A DNA stretch of 64,000 nucleotides from Burkholderia pyrrocinia (GTDB lineage: Bacteria > Pseudomonadota > Gammaproteobacteria > Burkholderiales > Burkholderiaceae). The notes under the pieces were generated by a model. That model was not told the origin of the DNA, did not search any database, and saw only the letters and a list, made by a program, of their open reading frames with translations. The translations under genes and the position numbers were made by a program. The stretch covers positions 248,001-312,000 of the forward strand of contig NZ_CP094461.1 of NCBI RefSeq assembly GCF_022809715.1, written 5' to 3'. Positions 50,076-57,371 of the stretch are shown one piece after another. The number at the start of each line of letters is the position of its first letter. Position 1 is the first letter of the stretch.

Positions 50076-50471
50076 ATGGAAAAGATGACTAATGACGCCG
50101 ATGAAGTGAACATGCACGACGAAATGCGACGCGCATTTTCGTTGCTGTCGGGCAAGTGGAAACTGGAGATCATGTGGCTGCTCAACCAGCGCGTCTATCG
50201 CTTTGGAGAACTACGAAAGGCGATTCCGGGCATCACCCAGCACATGCTGACGGCGCAGCTGCGGGAGCTCGAGGCGGACGGCCTGATCACCCGCACGGTT
50301 TTCGCGGAAGTGCCGCCGCGCGTCGAATACGCGATCACCGCGAAGGCGCGCGGTCTCGGGCCGACGATGGAAGCGCTGGCAGCGTGGTGGAACGAGTACG
50401 GGCGCAGCGTACCGGTCAGGCAGGCAACGCGCGGACGCAAGCCCGACGCGATCAAGCCGAAGCCGGAATGA
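50076..50471 (+). CDS. HxlR-family winged-helix regulator
   Basis: 131 residues. The winged helix (about 20-110) shows MRRAFSLLSGKWKLEIMWLL, RFGELRKAIPGITQHMLTAQ, LRELEADGLITRTVF and the RVEYAIT wing, all typical of HxlR/YodB-like regulators that sense aldehydes or quinones. The usual N-terminal redox cysteine is absent; there is no Cys in the protein, so a thiol switch is unlikely. Divergent from the DoxX and SDR genes, which are its probable targets. Confidence 0.92.
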   Translation: MEKMTNDADEVNMHDEMRRAFSLLSGKWKLEIMWLLNQRVYRFGELRKAIPGITQHMLTAQLRELEADGLITRTVFAEVPPRVEYAITAKARGLGPTMEALAAWWNEYGRSVPVRQATRGRKPDAIKPKPE

Positions 50472-50511
50472 CCGGACGCGTTGCCGGGGTATCCGCGCCG
50501 GCAATGGAAAA

Positions 50512-50527
50512 CTGTATGAATATACAG
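50512..50527. promoter_or_regulatory. LexA (SOS) box upstream of tandem uvrA
   Basis: CTGTATGAATATACAG is a perfect match to the CTG-N10-CAG SOS box, with symmetric CTGT and ACAG arms. A TATAGT that could serve as -10 directly follows it (50528-50533). It lies 128 bases upstream of the UvrA start, and no other gene is between them. Confidence 0.8.
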
Positions 50528-50548
50528 TATAGTAGCCGTCGAAATCGA

Positions 50549-50574
50549 GCCGCCCAGGTGCGACCCTGGGCGGC
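50549..50574 (+). other. Perfect hairpin in the uvrA leader
   Basis: GCCGCCCAGG (50549-50558) and CCTGGGCGGC (50565-50574) form ten pairs around a six-base loop, located between the SOS box and the TTG start. It could be a leader attenuator, a stabilising structure or the terminator of a short SOS-induced RNA. No T-run follows. Confidence 0.6.
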
Positions 50575-50655
50575 GCGTGCGCCGCGCCTGCGGGCATCCG
50601 CCGCAGCGTTCCGGCACCGTGAACTCTGGCTAACTCATTCAGACGGGCAGGCAAA

Positions 50656-53600
50656 TTGTCATCCAGCAATCTGATCCGCATTCGCGGAGCACGTCAGCAC
50701 AACCTCAAGAATATCGATCTCGACCTGCGCACCGGCGAAATGACGGTCGTCACCGGCCCGTCGGGCTCCGGCAAGTCGAGTCTCGTGTTCGACACGCTGT
50801 ACGCGGAAGGCCAGCGGCGCTATGTCGAAACCTTCAGCGCGTACGCGCGGCAGTTCCTCGACCGGATGGACCGCCCGCAGGTCGATCGCGTCGACGGCGT
50901 GCCGCCCGCGATCGCGATCGACCAGACCAACCCGGTGCGCAGCTCGCGTTCGACCGTCGGCACGATGACCGAGCTGAACGATCACCTGAAGCTGCTGTAC
51001 GCGCGCGCGGCCGAGCTGTTCGACCGCAAGACCGCGCGGCGGGTGCGGCACGACACGCCGGAGACGATCTACGCGGAGCTCGTCGCGCGCACGCAGGCGG
51101 ACGATCCGCGCGTTGTCGTCACGTTCCCGGTCGAGCTGCCGGAAACGGTGACTGACGAAGAAGTCACGCAGTGGCTGCCCGCGAGCGGCTATACGCGCGT
51201 GCAGGCGCAGCGCGAAGTCGCGTCGCCCACCGGGCCGCGCAAGGTGCTCGACGTGGTGGCCGACCGCTTCCGCGTGCAGCAGGCCGACAAGGTGCGCGTC
51301 GTCGAGGCGATCGAGGCGTCGCTGAAGCGCGGCGGCGGGCGCGTGAACGTCTACGTGCTCGCGGCTGAGCCGGAAAACGCTGGCGGCACGGCGGCGGAGC
51401 CGCAGGTGTGGCGCTTCTCCACCGGGCTCCATGATCCCGACAGCGACCTGCGCTATGCGGAGCCGCAGGCGGCGCTGTTCTCGTTCAACTCGGCCTATGG
51501 CGCGTGCGAAACCTGCCGCGGCTTCGGCCGCGTGATCGGTGTCGATCTCGGCCTCGTGATTCCCGACGCGCGCAAGACGCTGCGCGGCGGCGCGATCAAG
51601 CCGATGCAGACGCCCGCATGGAAGGAGTGCCAGGACGACCTGATGCGCTACGCGGCGAAGGCCGACATCCGGCGCGATGTGCCGTGGGCCGAGCTGACGG
51701 ACGCCGAGCGCGACTGGGTCGTCAACGGTTCGCCGGACTGGAACGGCAAGTGGCAGAGCCAGTGGTACGGCGTGAAGCGCTTCTTCGGTTACCTCGAATC
51801 GAAAGCGTACAAGATGCATATCCGCGTGCTGCTGTCGAAATACCGCAGCTACACGCCGTGCGACGTGTGCGGCGGCGCGCGCCTGAAGACGGAATCGCTG
51901 CAATGGCGGCTCGGCTCGAAAGAGAACGCCGACGGCGTGCTCGCGCCGGCCGGCCGTTTCATGCCGCGCGGCGTCGACTGGAGCCGCGCGCAGCTCGAAG
52001 CGCTGCCGGGCCTGACCGTGCACGACCTGATGCTGCTGCCGATCGAGCGCATCCGCCGCTTCTTCGACGACATCAACCTGCCGAGCGCGCTGCTCGACGA
52101 TGCGCTGAAGCTGCTGCTGGCCGAAGTGCGCACGCGCCTGAAATACCTGTGCGACGTGGGGCTCGGCTACCTGACGCTCGACCGGCAGAGCCGCACGCTG
52201 TCGGGCGGCGAGGTGCAGCGGATCAACCTGACGACGGCGCTCGGCACGTCGCTCACGAAAACCCTGTTCGTGCTCGACGAACCGAGCATCGGGCTGCATC
52301 CGCGCGATCTCACGCGGATCGTCGAGGCGATGCAGCGGCTGCGCGACGCGGGCAATACGCTGGTCGTCGTCGAGCACGATCCGTCGGTGATGCTCGCGGC
52401 GGACCGGCTGATCGACATGGGTCCCGGCCCGGGCGAGCGCGGCGGCACGATCGTCTACGACGGCACGCCGGGCGACATCCGTTCGGCGCACACGCTGACG
52501 GGCGAATACCTCGGCGGCCGCAAGCATGTCGCGCATGCGTCGAACTGGGCGCGCCGGCTGGTCGACGCGGATACGCCGCGCATCGTGCTCGACGGCGCGA
52601 GCGAACACAACCTGCGCGACGTGACGGTCGAGATTCCGCTGCAGCGGCTCGTGTGCGTGACCGGCGTGTCGGGTTCCGGCAAATCCACGCTGCTGCAGGA
52701 CGTGCTTTATCCGGCGATGGCGCGGCACCACGGCAAGGCGACCGAGTCGCCGGGCGCGTACCGCAGCCTGACAGGCGCCGACCAGGTGGGCGACGTCGTG
52801 TTCGTCGACCAGTCGCCGATCGGCAAGACCACGCGTTCGAACCCGGCGAGTTATGTCGGCGCGTTCGACGAGATCCGCAAGCTGTTCGCGAAGGCGCCGC
52901 TCGCATTGCAGCGCGGCTACGGCGCCGGCACGTTCAGCTTCAACTCGGGCGACGGCCGTTGCCCGACCTGCGGCGGCTCGGGCTTCGAGCACATCGAGAT
53001 GCAGTTCCTGAGCGACGTGTATCTGCGTTGCCCGGACTGCGACGGCAGCCGCTACCGCGCCGAGATTCTCGAAGTGCGCATCGAGCGCGATGGCCGCGCG
53101 CTGAGCATCGCCGACGTGCTCGACCTGACCGTCAGCGAAGCGGCCGCGTTTTTTGCGGCCGACGCCGAGGTGCTGCGCGTGCTGCAGCCGATCGTCGACG
53201 TCGGGCTCGAATACGTGAAGCTCGGCCAGCCGGTGCCGACGCTGTCGGGCGGCGAGGCGCAGCGCCTGAAACTGGCCGGCTTCCTTGCCGAATCCGCGGC
53301 GGCGGTCAACGGCCGCCGGGTCGTCACGGAAGAGGCACGTGTCGCGCGTGTGAAGTTGTTCATGTTCGACGAGCCGACCACCGGGCTGCACTTCGACGAC
53401 ATCGCGAAGCTGATGCAGGCGTTCGGCAAGCTGCTCGCGGCCGGCCATTCGCTGATCGTGATCGAACACAACCTCGACGTGATCCGCGCGGCCGACTGGC
53501 TGATCGATCTCGGCCCGGAAGGCGGCGACGGCGGCGGCCTCGTGCTGTGCGCGGGCACGCCCGACGACGTGAAGGCCTGCGCCGAATCGCATACCGGCGT

Positions 53601-56559
53601 GGCGTTGCTGCAATACGATCGCGCGATGGATGCCGAAGCGCCGCTCGGCGACGAAGGCGTGCCGCTGCAGGCCGTGCTGAACGCCGCGCGCGAGCGCCGT
53701 GCGATCGAAGGCGAGGATGTCGTGCGGATCGTCAACGCGCGCGAACACAACCTGAAGTCGCTCGACGTCGATATCCCGCACGGCAAGTTCAACGTGATCA
53801 CCGGCGTGTCGGGTTCCGGCAAGTCGACGCTCGCGTTCGACATCCTGTTCCACGAAGGCCAGCGCCGCTACCTCGAATCGCTGAACGCGTATGCGCGCTC
53901 GATCGTGCAGCCGGCCGGACGCCCCGAAGTCGACGCGGTGTACGGCATTCCGCCGACCGTCGCGATCGAGCAGCGGCTGTCGCGCGGCGGCCGCAAGAGC
54001 ACGGTCGCGACGACGTCCGAAGTCTGGCACTTCCTGCGGCTGCTGTATGTGAAGCTCGGCCTGCAGCATTGCATCCACGACGGCACGCCGGTCACGTCGC
54101 AGTCCGTCGAATCGATCGCCGCGCAGTTGCTGCGCGATCATCGCGGCGAGCACGTCGGGCTGCTCGCACCGCTCGTCGTCAACCGCAAGGGCGTGTACAC
54201 GGATCTCGCGAAGTGGGCGAAGGCGCGCGGCAGCACGCATCTGCGCGTCGACGGCGAGTTCGTGCCGGTCGATCCGTGGCCGAAGCTCGACCGCTTCCGC
54301 GAGCACACGATCGAGCTGCCGGTCGCCGATATCGTCGTATCGCCGGACAACGAGGCCGAGTTGCGGCGCGTGCTCGACGAGACGCTCGAACTCGGCAAGG
54401 GCGTGATGCATCTGCTCGCGCCGCTCGACGGGCTGCAAGATGCGATGCAGAACGATCGTTCGACCGCGCGCGTCGGTGCGGTGAAGGTGCTGTCGGTCAA
54501 GCGTGCGTGCCCGGTGTGCGGCACGAGTTATCCGGAGCTGGACCCGCGGATGTTCTCGTACAACAGCAAGCACGGCTGGTGCACGACCTGCGTCGGCACC
54601 GGCGTCACGCTCACGCGCGAACAGCGCGCCGCGTACGACGACACGGTGCTCGCCGAGGACGGCCGCGGCCGCGAGCAGACGCTGCCGTCGGACGAGCAGG
54701 AACCGGAAGGCGTCGGCAACGAGCCGTGCCCGGATTGCGGCGGCACGCGGCTGAACCCGTCCGCGCGCGCGGTGACGTTCGACGCGCATCCGATCGTCGA
54801 GGTCGCGCAGTGGACGGTGTCGGACACGCGGCGCTGGATCGACGGGCTGGAACTCACCGGGCGCGACGCGCAGATCGCGCGCGACATCGTCAGCGAGATC
54901 GGCAGCCGCCTCGCGTTTCTCGAGGAAGTCGGGCTCGGCTACCTGAGCCTCGACCGTGCGGCGCCGAGCCTGTCGGGCGGCGAAGCGCAGCGCATCCGTC
55001 TCGCCGCGCAGCTCGGCAGCAACCTGCAAGGCGTCTGCTACGTGCTCGACGAGCCGACGATCGGCCTGCATCCGCGCGACAACCAGATCCTGCTGGACGC
55101 GTTGCGCAAGCTCGGCGACAAGGGCAATACGCTGGTCGTCGTCGAGCATGACGAGGACACGATCCGCCGCGCCGATCACATCATCGACGTCGGCCCGGGC
55201 GCCGGCAAGCGCGGCGGCACGCTGGTCGCGCAGGGCGCGGTCGCGGATCTCGCCGCGCAGTCCGATTCGGTGACGGGGCGCCTGCTCGCGCATCCGATGA
55301 CGCATCCGCTGCAAACGCGCCGCGGCGTGAGCCTGCCGGGCAAGAAGGGCGGGCAGGCGGCGCCGGAAGCCTGGCTGACCGTGCATGGTGCACGGCTGCA
55401 CAACCTGCGCGACGTCACGGTCGGCATTCCGCTCGCGCGGCTCGTCGCGGTGACGGGCGTCAGCGGGTCGGGCAAGTCGACGCTCGCGCGCGACGTGCTG
55501 ATGACGAACCTGCTCGACGCGGTCGGCCGCTCGGTGCTGTCGTCGCCGGCCACGCGGCGCGCGCGCAAGGCTGCGCAGCAGGACGCGCCGGCGGCCAGCC
55601 GCCGTTCGAGCGTGCTCGCGCGCAGCGCGCCGCGGCCGTCGCTGAACGTCACGCATGCATGGCAGGGCTGCGAGTCGCTGAGCGGCTGGGAGCAGATCGA
55701 TCGCGTGCTCGAGGTCGATCAAACGCCGATCGGCAAGACGCCGCGTTCGTGTCCGGCCACCTATATCGGCGTGTGGGACACGATCCGCAAGCTGTTCGCG
55801 GATACGCTCGAAGCGCGTGCGCGCGGTTATACGGCGTCGCGTTTCTCGTTCAATACCGGCGACGGGCGCTGCCCTGCGTGCGAAGGGCAAGGCGTGCGCA
55901 CGATCGGCATGAGCTTCCTGCCCGACGTGAAGGTGCCGTGCGACGTATGCCACGGGCAGCGCTTCAACCCGGAGACGCTTGCCGTTACGTGGCGCGGCCG
56001 GAACATCGGCGACGTGCTGACGATGGAGATCGACGAGGCAGTGGAATTTTTTGCGCCGATCTCGAACATCGCGCATCCGCTGCAGTTGATGAAGGATGTC
56101 GGGCTCGGCTACCTGACGCTCGGCCAGCCGTCGCCGACGCTGTCCGGCGGCGAGGCGCAGCGCATCAAGCTCGTCACCGAGCTGACGAAGGTGCGCGACG
56201 ACATCACGCGGCGCGGCCAGAAGGCGCCGCACACGCTGTACGTGCTCGACGAGCCGACGGTCGGCCTGCACATGGCGGACGTCGCGAAACTGATTCGCGT
56301 GCTGCATCGGCTGGTCGACGCGGGGCATAGCGTCGTCGTGATCGAGCATGACCTCGACGTGATCGCGGAAGCCGACTGGATCATCGATCTCGGGCCGGAA
56401 GGCGGCGTGGGCGGCGGCACGATCGTCGCGGCGGCGGCGCCGGAAGCGCTCGCGAAGGTGAGCGCGAGCCATACGGGGCAGGCGCTGAAGCCGGTGCTCG
56501 CGCGCACGGCGGCGAATGAGGGTGAAGCCGAGCGGCAGGGAGAAGCGCGGGTCGGTTGA
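50656..56559 (+). CDS. Tandem-duplicated UvrA (excinuclease ABC subunit A) with four ATPase domains
   Basis: 1967 residues, twice a normal UvrA (~940). Half 1 is about residues 1-1010 and half 2 about 1018-1967. Each half has two ABC ATPase modules: Walker A at about 34 (GPSGSGKSS), 669, 1050 and 1600 (GVSGSGKST), and signatures LSGGE at about 515, 862, 1438 and 1829. The zinc-finger with CxxC pairs near CPTCGGSGFEH and CPACEGQG is present in both halves. In half 1 the first CxxC of the other module (before LFSFNSAYGACETC) is replaced by RFSTGLHDP, while half 2 keeps CPVC...CTTC. Start codon is a TTG with only a weak GGCAGG ahead. UvrA recognises DNA damage and loads UvrB; a fused copy likely works as a built-in dimer. 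Confidence 0.92.
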   Translation: MSSSNLIRIRGARQHNLKNIDLDLRTGEMTVVTGPSGSGKSSLVFDTLYAEGQRRYVETFSAYARQFLDRMDRPQVDRVDGVPPAIAIDQTNPVRSSRSTVGTMTELNDHLKLLYARAAELFDRKTARRVRHDTPETIYAELVARTQADDPRVVVTFPVELPETVTDEEVTQWLPASGYTRVQAQREVASPTGPRKVLDVVADRFRVQQADKVRVVEAIEASLKRGGGRVNVYVLAAEPENAGGTAAEPQVWRFSTGLHDPDSDLRYAEPQAALFSFNSAYGACETCRGFGRVIGVDLGLVIPDARKTLRGGAIKPMQTPAWKECQDDLMRYAAKADIRRDVPWAELTDAERDWVVNGSPDWNGKWQSQWYGVKRFFGYLESKAYKMHIRVLLSKYRSYTPCDVCGGARLKTESLQWRLGSKENADGVLAPAGRFMPRGVDWSRAQLEALPGLTVHDLMLLPIERIRRFFDDINLPSALLDDALKLLLAEVRTRLKYLCDVGLGYLTLDRQSRTLSGGEVQRINLTTALGTSLTKTLFVLDEPSIGLHPRDLTRIVEAMQRLRDAGNTLVVVEHDPSVMLAADRLIDMGPGPGERGGTIVYDGTPGDIRSAHTLTGEYLGGRKHVAHASNWARRLVDADTPRIVLDGASEHNLRDVTVEIPLQRLVCVTGVSGSGKSTLLQDVLYPAMARHHGKATESPGAYRSLTGADQVGDVVFVDQSPIGKTTRSNPASYVGAFDEIRKLFAKAPLALQRGYGAGTFSFNSGDGRCPTCGGSGFEHIEMQFLSDVYLRCPDCDGSRYRAEILEVRIERDGRALSIADVLDLTVSEAAAFFAADAEVLRVLQPIVDVGLEYVKLGQPVPTLSGGEAQRLKLAGFLAESAAAVNGRRVVTEEARVARVKLFMFDEPTTGLHFDDIAKLMQAFGKLLAAGHSLIVIEHNLDVIRAADWLIDLGPEGGDGGGLVLCAGTPDDVKACAESHTGVALLQYDRAMDAEAPLGDEGVPLQAVLNAARERRAIEGEDVVRIVNAREHNLKSLDVDIPHGKFNVITGVSGSGKSTLAFDILFHEGQRRYLESLNAYARSIVQPAGRPEVDAVYGIPPTVAIEQRLSRGGRKSTVATTSEVWHFLRLLYVKLGLQHCIHDGTPVTSQSVESIAAQLLRDHRGEHVGLLAPLVVNRKGVYTDLAKWAKARGSTHLRVDGEFVPVDPWPKLDRFREHTIELPVADIVVSPDNEAELRRVLDETLELGKGVMHLLAPLDGLQDAMQNDRSTARVGAVKVLSVKRACPVCGTSYPELDPRMFSYNSKHGWCTTCVGTGVTLTREQRAAYDDTVLAEDGRGREQTLPSDEQEPEGVGNEPCPDCGGTRLNPSARAVTFDAHPIVEVAQWTVSDTRRWIDGLELTGRDAQIARDIVSEIGSRLAFLEEVGLGYLSLDRAAPSLSGGEAQRIRLAAQLGSNLQGVCYVLDEPTIGLHPRDNQILLDALRKLGDKGNTLVVVEHDEDTIRRADHIIDVGPGAGKRGGTLVAQGAVADLAAQSDSVTGRLLAHPMTHPLQTRRGVSLPGKKGGQAAPEAWLTVHGARLHNLRDVTVGIPLARLVAVTGVSGSGKSTLARDVLMTNLLDAVGRSVLSSPATRRARKAAQQDAPAASRRSSVLARSAPRPSLNVTHAWQGCESLSGWEQIDRVLEVDQTPIGKTPRSCPATYIGVWDTIRKLFADTLEARARGYTASRFSFNTGDGRCPACEGQGVRTIGMSFLPDVKVPCDVCHGQRFNPETLAVTWRGRNIGDVLTMEIDEAVEFFAPISNIAHPLQLMKDVGLGYLTLGQPSPTLSGGEAQRIKLVTELTKVRDDITRRGQKAPHTLYVLDEPTVGLHMADVAKLIRVLHRLVDAGHSVVVIEHDLDVIAEADWIIDLGPEGGVGGGTIVAAAAPEALAKVSASHTGQALKPVLARTAANEGEAERQGEARVG

Positions 56560-56577
56560 ATGCGGCGCGTCGAATGA

Positions 56578-56615
56578 ACGGCTCCGGTGTCGAACGAGAC
56601 ACCGGGGCCGTTTTT
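56578..56615 (+). terminator. Rho-independent terminator after tandem uvrA
   Basis: ACGGCTCCGGTGTC and GACACCGGGGCCGT form a 14-bp stem (one G-T pair) with a six-base loop and a TTTTT run at 56611-56615, 18 bases after the stop. Confidence 0.88.
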
Positions 56616-56636
56616 ACATCGTCATGCGGTTTTCAA

Positions 56637-57371
56637 TCAGGCTGGCGGTGCAACCGACGCGCCGGTGATGCCGTGCCGCCGCAGCGACTCCGCGACGAAG
56701 CCCGACGCCTTCATTTCCTCGACGAATTCGTTCAGCGCCGCCGCGGCAGCCTCGCCGCGGCTCTTCGGCACACCCATCGCCTGCCGGATCACCATGAACC
56801 GCTCGTCGAGCAGGCGCAGGCCCGTTGTTTTCGCGGCGTCGGCTTCGAGTTGCTGCTTCACGCCGGCCGCTACTTCCAGTTGCTGTTCGACGAACGTCTG
56901 CACGACGGCCTGCGACGTCGGCGCGCGCACGATCTGCGCGGCTTTCAGTTCGCGCGTGAGGAACAGGTCGTATGCGCTGCCTTTGCCGACGGTCACGCGG
57001 TTGTGCGGCTGGTCGACGTCCTCGTTCGTGCGGATCGGCGAAGCGTCGCGCACGAGATAGAAGCCCTCGATCAGCACGTACGGCGCGGTGAACGCGACCG
57101 TTTCGCCGCGCAGCGGATCGACCGCGAAGAAGCCGAAATCGGCGCGCTCTTCGGTCAGTGCCTGCACCGATTTCCCGGCGGCGTCGAACACGACGAGTTC
57201 CAGCTCGGCCGACAGGCGTTCCGCGAACGCGCGCGCCAGATCGATCGACACGCCGAACGGTTCGCCGGTGGCCGGATCGCGGTTCGCGAGGATCGGGTTG
57301 CCGAGATTGATCGACGCGCGCAGCTTGCCGGTTGGGGTGAAGGCAGAGAGGATGGCAGGGGCGAGGGGCAT
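56637..57371 (-). CDS. Amino-acid-type solute-binding protein without signal peptide
   Basis: 244 residues with a family 3 extracellular solute-binding fold: GEPFGVSIDLARAFAERL, then RADFGFFAVDPLRGETVAFTAPYV and VGKGSAYDLFL. The start MPLAPAILSAFTPTGKLRA has no signal peptide or lipobox, and no transmembrane helix is visible, so the protein should stay in the cytoplasm. Such proteins can be non-transport relatives, for example the cyclohexadienyl dehydratase group. No permease or ATPase gene is adjacent. Convergent with the tandem uvrA gene. Confidence 0.82.
   Translation of the reverse strand: MPLAPAILSAFTPTGKLRASINLGNPILANRDPATGEPFGVSIDLARAFAERLSAELELVVFDAAGKSVQALTEERADFGFFAVDPLRGETVAFTAPYVLIEGFYLVRDASPIRTNEDVDQPHNRVTVGKGSAYDLFLTRELKAAQIVRAPTSQAVVQTFVEQQLEVAAGVKQQLEADAAKTTGLRLLDERFMVIRQAMGVPKSRGEAAAAALNEFVEEMKASGFVAESLRRHGITGASVAPPA

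Follow-up and report, generated by a model that had tools for sequence, protein, structure and literature searches.

The window analysed here, 64,000 nucleotides (nt) of Burkholderia pyrrocinia (contig NZ_CP094461.1, positions 248,001 to 312,000), lies on the third contig of a three-contig, 7.69-Mb genome and includes a double-length uvrA gene. This gene uses a TTG start and encodes a protein of 1967 residues (coordinates of all features are in Table 1). The protein reaches 1888.5 bits with the uvrA model TIGR00630, passing the curated cut-off of 729.8, and its N and C halves score 922.0 and 974.1 bits, respectively, when taken singly. Four Walker A motifs (residues 34, 670, 1050 and 1601), four LSGGE signatures (residues 515, 863, 1439 and 1829) and four Walker B/H-loop sets are present and none is damaged, giving two complete ATP-binding cassette (ABC) modules per half. 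The N half spans about residues 1-990 and the C half about 1022-1967, with 41% identity between them. The head-to-tail fusion of non-identical UvrA units with four ABC ATPase modules, read from the letters in the initial annotation, is therefore confirmed. An ordinary, single-length uvrA encoding 961 residues, whose presence was to be checked, is found on a separate replicon (G000:C1:3207183-3209984), so the fusion is not the only UvrA of this genome.

A family scan of species genomes confirmed at least 594 related stretches, of which the best 80 were kept. These came mostly from Burkholderiales, joined by Gammaproteobacteria such as Teredinibacter and Marinimicrobium and by one Akkermansiaceae metagenome-assembled genome (MAG), and ranged from 97% down to 45% best-segment protein identity. 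The nearest among the matches listed belong to the Burkholderia cepacia complex (B. cepacia LK29 and B. lata, both at 97%). After ten short sequences were left out, 70 relatives were aligned. Walker A, signature, Walker B and H-loop are kept in nearly all of them, the exceptions being a few gapped, masked or singly changed rows.

The two halves differ in signature domain I, which in ordinary UvrA holds the UvrB-binding domain and the DNA-contacting insertion domain (PMC6486640, PMC7835731). The insertion-domain stretch measures 108-118 residues in N halves and only 29-45 residues in C halves, in 70 of 70 relatives; in the window protein it is 109 residues in the N half as against a 40-residue loop in the C half. 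A UvrB-binding-type domain is present on both sides (126 and 135 residues in the N and C halves, respectively). To compare its sequence we used 41 ordinary UvrAs as reference, in which 302 positions are at least 90% conserved. Five of the charged ones lie in the UvrB-binding domain (R176, D215, R216, R226 and E232 in the numbering of the housekeeping protein) and form a cluster that is exact in 37 of the 41. Four or five of these charges are kept in 70 of 71 N halves (one is gapped), and none or one in all 71 C halves; in the window C half the positions are occupied by H1195, A1224, D1225, E1235 and D1241. The same contrast was observed both ways in 33 of 33 members of a wider set of fusions including 10 from Verrucomicrobiota. 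The description of this protein as two full UvrA halves thus fails for the C half, which has neither the insertion domain nor the five conserved charges.

A smaller difference in the opposite direction is seen in signature domain II. Among its 78 invariants in the proteobacterial set, 10 are kept in the C half only, 3 in the N half only, 58 in both and 7 in neither; in Verrucomicrobiota the corresponding C-only and N-only counts are 14 and 4. Each half was also modelled singly with AlphaFold2 on 24-row alignments, with a mean predicted local distance difference test score (pLDDT) of 84.7 for the N half and 81.2 for the C half. For both models the best matches in the PDB were UvrA structures (2r6f and 3uwx).

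Zinc module 1 is also altered. In the window protein the N half has none of its ligands, and the C half keeps the second CxxC and one cysteine of the first pair. Across the family the N-half module (window 51421-51519) reads CxxC in members from Achromobacter, Thauera and the Gammaproteobacteria. Comamonadaceae and kin mostly have CPES or CPDS, Paraburkholderia, Caballeronia and Cupriavidus have SPES or SPDS, and the window protein and its near kin have DPDS. Judged by this series, the N-half module is eroded stepwise, from CxxC through CPES and SPES to DPDS. From the alignment and from zinc module 1 we had considered assigning UvrB binding to the C half and DNA binding to the N half; this idea was dropped because the charges are kept in the N half and because zinc module 1 ligands are missing from several ordinary single UvrAs as well.

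The upstream region carries a perfect LexA-type box, as initially annotated, and its position can now be specified: it takes up the spacer of a sigma70-like promoter, the only one detected between 50400 and 56800, where 0.3 are expected from shuffles. Exact CTGTATN4ATACAG sites number 5 in the whole 7.69-Mb genome. Besides the one at the double uvrA, three adjoin lexA (TIGR00498, 216.5 bits), imuA (NF033429, 218.3 bits) and an SRAP-domain gene (PF02586, 79.3 bits). The remaining site (L089, G000:C1:1150193-1150208) lies in a region with a phage-repressor-like open reading frame (ORF), judged by eye and with no Pfam name, and could belong to a possible SOS-induced prophage. From the exact box between -35 and -10 we infer LexA control of the double uvrA in the window genome. 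For the single uvrA of this genome, SOS control was rejected for lack of a box, the best site over some 1.5 kb of upstream sequence reaching only 7/12. The leader of the double uvrA, which separates the promoter from the TTG start, contains an inverted repeat (50546-50577) with 13-nt arms that are 92% complementary.

We then asked how far the box extends in relatives. When 67 family loci with 250 nt upstream were scored out of 12, scores of 11-12 were obtained in 8, at 69-152 nt upstream, all of them from Burkholderia, Paraburkholderia, Caballeronia or Cupriavidus, and a score of 10 in 3 (two Achromobacter and one MAG). A Ralstonia MAG (L011) and Candidatus Burkholderia crenata (L012) reached only 7. 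None of 1269 control windows from the same loci reached 10/12. In a second survey, which retained only the best-scoring site in about 450 nt upstream in 40 genomes over Burkholderiales, this site was a full CTGT/ACAG pair before the fusion in 3 genomes and before the single uvrA in none. Since 15 of 2000 shuffled sequences reached 10/12 in windows of about 450 nt, a score of 10 alone is weak. The double UvrA had been called SOS-controlled; a strong LexA-type box does stand in its promoter here, but with strong boxes at 8 of 67 loci and the full pair in 3 of 40 genomes, SOS control as a property of the family was rejected.

The gene ends at a clear intrinsic terminator, as also claimed at the outset. 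Its hairpin (56576-56613) has an energy of -32.7 kcal/mol (z -6.3; 0 of 200 shuffles as good) and is followed by a T-run; a simple pattern scan of 50400-56800 did not list it. Of the neighbours scanned, the upstream ones are an HxlR regulator and a short-chain dehydrogenase; downstream lie a binding-protein-like ORF (below curated cut-offs) and a TonB-dependent receptor. No repair gene was found among them, in agreement with the isolated position first noted.

Table 1. Features of the double uvrA locus, with positions in the window
Feature	Position	Strand	Basis or remark
Sigma70-like promoter, -35 TGGAAA (50505-50510), -10 TATAGT (50528-50533), 17-nt spacer	50505..50533	+	pattern scan
LexA-type operator CTGTATGAATATACAG in promoter spacer	50512..50527	.	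exact CTGTATN4ATACAG match
Double uvrA gene, 1967 residues	50656..56559	+	ORF and TIGR00630 match
N half, UvrA architecture with UvrB-binding-type and insertion domains; zinc module 1 ligands all lost	50656..53625	+	
N-half UvrB-binding-type domain, residues 129-254; conserved charges R181, D203, R204, R214, E220	51040..51417	+	
N-half insertion domain, residues 290-398	51523..51849	+	PF17755 at residues 297-362 and alignment
Inter-half linker, about residues 991-1021	53626..53718	+	alignment
C half, UvrA without insertion domain, two intact ABC modules	53719..56556	+	
C-half UvrB-binding-type domain, residues 1145-1279	54088..54492	+	PF17760 best stretch 1149-1253; confident predicted fold
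40-residue loop at insertion-domain site of C half, residues 1315-1354	54598..54717	+	alignment; C-half model residues 310-326 with pLDDT <50
C-half signature domain II, bounds approximate	55714..56184	+	somewhat better conserved than N-half counterpart
Intrinsic terminator, 16-bp stem, 6-nt loop, T-run	56576..56615	+	hairpin energy

A search for long proteins with two UvrA units was suggested with the initial annotation. Among 150 Burkholderiales genomes, an N-half match at an E value of 1e-250 or better occurs in 47, and in 45 of these it lies in a frame of at least 1820 residues. All 45 also have a single-length uvrA, which is partial at a contig end in one (G211) and gives a split match in three (G147, G190 and G229). 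In G147 (G147:C1:4062644-4065565) the match breaks at profile position 608 inside one 1070-residue frame, as if about 40 residues were inserted there; in G190 and G229 only the first part of the profile (1-608) appears among the matches listed. A full-length fusion match is also found in the symbiont Candidatus Burkholderia crenata (a 1947-residue frame, L012) and in Mycetohabitans of Rhizopus. A third UvrA, of class II and without a UvrB-binding domain (rows among L139 and L142-L144), occurs in some genomes with the fusion (G009, G234 and G317); the class II row L142 comes from G279, where no fusion was seen.

In Verrucomicrobiota (59 genomes, matches at an E value of 1e-180 or better), the fusion was found in a frame of at least 1839 residues in 16 genomes, and as a cut fusion in two more. 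In 7 of the 16 (G314, G326, G342, G345, G348, G351 and G354) no single UvrA that combines an insertion domain with a UvrB-binding domain was found; this negative is most secure for G342, G345 and G354, whose fusion contig makes up nearly the whole genome. All seven have uvrB, and the fusion adjoins it. Six of the seven carry a shorter second UvrA. Those of G314, G342, G345 and G348 (L136, L186, L184 and L185, respectively) keep a UvrB-binding domain of 123 residues, with its charges as RDRRE or RDRRQ, and have 2-7 residues at the insertion-domain site. For G351 and G354 a similar match pattern, and only the pattern, was seen, and in the draft G326 no second UvrA was seen at 1e-180. By this alignment, single UvrAs with a UvrB-binding domain and without an insertion domain are an unusual UvrA form of their own. 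Sequence matches thus place the double UvrA as a widespread family of Burkholderiales, some Gammaproteobacteria and Verrucomicrobiota.

The origin of the fusion was examined with trees. In a quick 74-row LG+G4 tree from which the UvrB-binding and insertion domains had been left out, the 21 N halves group in a clade of their own and so do the 21 C halves, both with 100 in the Shimodaira-Hasegawa-like approximate likelihood ratio test (SH-aLRT), and the same clades appear in a quick 46-row mixture-model tree. Each clade holds a proteobacterial and a Verrucomicrobiota part, a pattern that fits a single fusion event followed by descent and transfer. The mixture tree places the N halves nearer to single UvrAs with a support of 81; a tree holding N and C halves together, as sisters from one tandem duplication would be, was not rejected by the approximately unbiased (AU) test (p-AU 0.335).

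These features can be joined in one model. UvrB contacts the UvrA dimer at two points, one on the binding domain of a protomer and one on signature domain II of its partner (PMC7616783). The double UvrA would serve nucleotide excision repair as a second sensor of damage, with the whole UvrA dimer contained in a single chain whose halves would pack on each other like two protomers. One composite UvrB site, made of the N-half binding domain and the C-half signature domain II, would then be well kept, and the opposite one would show clear wear where the C half contributes and slight wear where the N half does. From two-point docking and this unequal wear we propose a single-chain pseudo-dimer that would load one UvrB and probe DNA with one insertion domain. 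In Burkholderiaceae, cleavage of LexA after DNA damage would raise the level of the fusion; the housekeeping uvrA of the window genome is boxless. We assign a probability of about one half to a single-chain UvrA pseudo-dimer with one UvrB-docking side that is SOS-inducible in the window genome. More tentatively, and with the odds slightly against it, the protein could be a naturally one-sided UvrA, a form of a machine generally regarded as symmetric, with one docking side and one insertion domain facing a partner half that has neither, so that only one UvrB would be loaded per damage search.

Several observations weigh against such one-sidedness. The charged conserved positions kept in the N half and lost in the C half are 5 of 5 in the UvrB-binding domain compared to 2 of 60 outside it and the insertion domain (Fisher p 2.5e-6), but the five were picked from the same alignment as this contrast, and the 71-row count samples the same family more widely. 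Geobacillus R176 and R206, which we take to be UvrB contacts in 3fpn, align with two of the five, and the literature sought on UvrA-UvrB contact residues yielded no paper confirming them. The difference in signature domain II is modest. The C half is nearer to the 961-residue housekeeping UvrA (47% identity, 42% for the N half), keeps 241 of the 302 conserved positions compared to 234, and, of the 29 conserved positions in the part of signature domain I that follows the insertion domain, has 6 that are C-only, with none N-only. By these counts the C half is overall no more decayed than the N half. Its binding domain keeps the conserved L151, A152 and G191 (housekeeping numbering), has a confidently predicted fold in AlphaFold2 and gives the best match (1149-1253) to the Pfam UvrB-interaction model (UvrA_inter, PF17760), which matches both halves. 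The C half may therefore bind UvrB, or another partner, via other residues. Zinc module 1 says nothing on UvrB, because several ordinary single UvrAs are short of part of its ligands too (L107, L115 and L116; L169, from Sphingomonas; L166 and L168, from Bacteroidota). Finally, the short Verrucomicrobiota UvrAs may share the work, since they keep the binding-domain charges.

Taken to its end, a C half that binds UvrB by altered residues would make the protein a functionally symmetric covalent dimer, in which fusion only holds the two units together at low concentration. The retained C-half domain with its Pfam match and predicted fold, the second CxxC of C-half zinc module 1 and the slight surplus of invariants all favour this explanation. 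We nevertheless consider it unlikely: a merely structural fusion need lose neither charges nor insertion domain, and in the C halves the five charges are gone, partly reversed, and the insertion domain is missing throughout. The protein could also be a UvrA-like ABC protein now independent of UvrB, engaged for example in antibiotic removal from DNA, a role proposed for DrrC and Ecm16 of class II, or acting as an SOS-induced DNA-binding factor. UvrA paralogues with another role do exist (Ecm16, PMC10192343), and the window genome has a housekeeping uvrA. However, both halves retain a UvrB-binding-type domain that is absent from class II, the N half retains the charged cluster, and in the seven Verrucomicrobiota genomes, all with uvrB, no other UvrA with both domains was found; a UvrB-independent role is therefore doubtful in our judgement. 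Patchy spread, with the N-half match in 47 of 150 Burkholderiales genomes, could also reflect passive redundancy, the gene being a duplicate without a function of its own that drift or transfer has maintained. Frames that stay long and unbroken and catalytic motifs that persist down to 45% identity, together with the LexA-type box in one group, make this highly improbable.

If the proposed pseudo-dimer is correct, it bears on a debated stoichiometry. The number of UvrBs is variously estimated: considerable evidence is cited for two, possibly one per strand, and only one is described in the incision complex (PMC7835731, PMC5053424). According to PDB titles, both forms have been solved on damaged DNA (9ga3, MtUvrA2UvrB; 9ga4, MtUvrA2UvrB2). 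A family docking UvrB on one side only would be a natural mutant for the need of the second UvrB. Where the fusion is the only complete UvrA, as in some Verrucomicrobiota, a check of both strands by two UvrBs would not be obligatory, and in Burkholderiaceae the fusion would be an SOS-induced second sensor. Because both halves are in one chain, the four ATPase sites, the lone insertion domain and the lone docking surface can each be altered separately, unlike in a homodimer.

Published reports touch on this gene at two points. The available text of the Cupriavidus metallidurans CH34 genome paper reports a second excinuclease gene, uvrA2 (Rmet_4549), on chromosome 2 (PMC2864759), as an annotation and with nothing there on fusion, asymmetry or LexA. 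With a full-length match in C. metallidurans NC_007974.2 that is 81% identical to the double UvrA, uvrA2 is probably the same gene. A uvrA also figures in the predicted core LexA regulon of multi-chromosome Betaproteobacteria including Burkholderia (PMC3323433), and this prediction may already include the gene described here. Beyond the Cupriavidus annotation we found no account of a fused or double UvrA, of its asymmetry or of a uvrA2 in Burkholderia in a search that left out most subscription journals, which is weak evidence of novelty. In databases these proteins are labelled 'excinuclease ABC subunit UvrA', in line with the initial expectation that long UvrAs are known as annotations in Burkholderia and its relatives.

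Among characterised proteins, class I UvrAs (E. coli, Geobacillus and T. maritima; 2r6f, 3uwx and 3pih) resemble each half, which likewise has a pair of ABC modules, keeps the cysteines of zinc modules 2 and 3 and contains a UvrB-binding-type domain. The fusion differs from them in carrying two units per chain, the second without an insertion domain or the conserved binding-domain charges, and zinc module 1 is incomplete in both halves of the window protein. A double-length UvrA, also labelled excinuclease ABC subunit A, is described by the NCBIfam model NF001885/PRK00635 (1809 positions), which we take to be the double UvrA of Chlamydia. To our knowledge, that protein is the only UvrA of Chlamydia. 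Compared via the profile alone, the window protein (1075.3 bits) and three distant relatives (1033-1154 bits) stay far below the cut-off of 3054; the best stretch of each half, tried singly, falls in the first half of the model. Class II UvrAs (Deinococcus UvrA2, 2vf7; Ecm16, 7sh1) share the UvrA fold, the insertion domain and their status as additions to the housekeeping UvrA, but have 0 residues at the UvrB-binding domain (rows L139 and L142-L144), which both halves of the fusion keep. Set beside these systems, the double uvrA is a real and conserved gene, known as an annotation, and what is new in it is the consistent one-sidedness.

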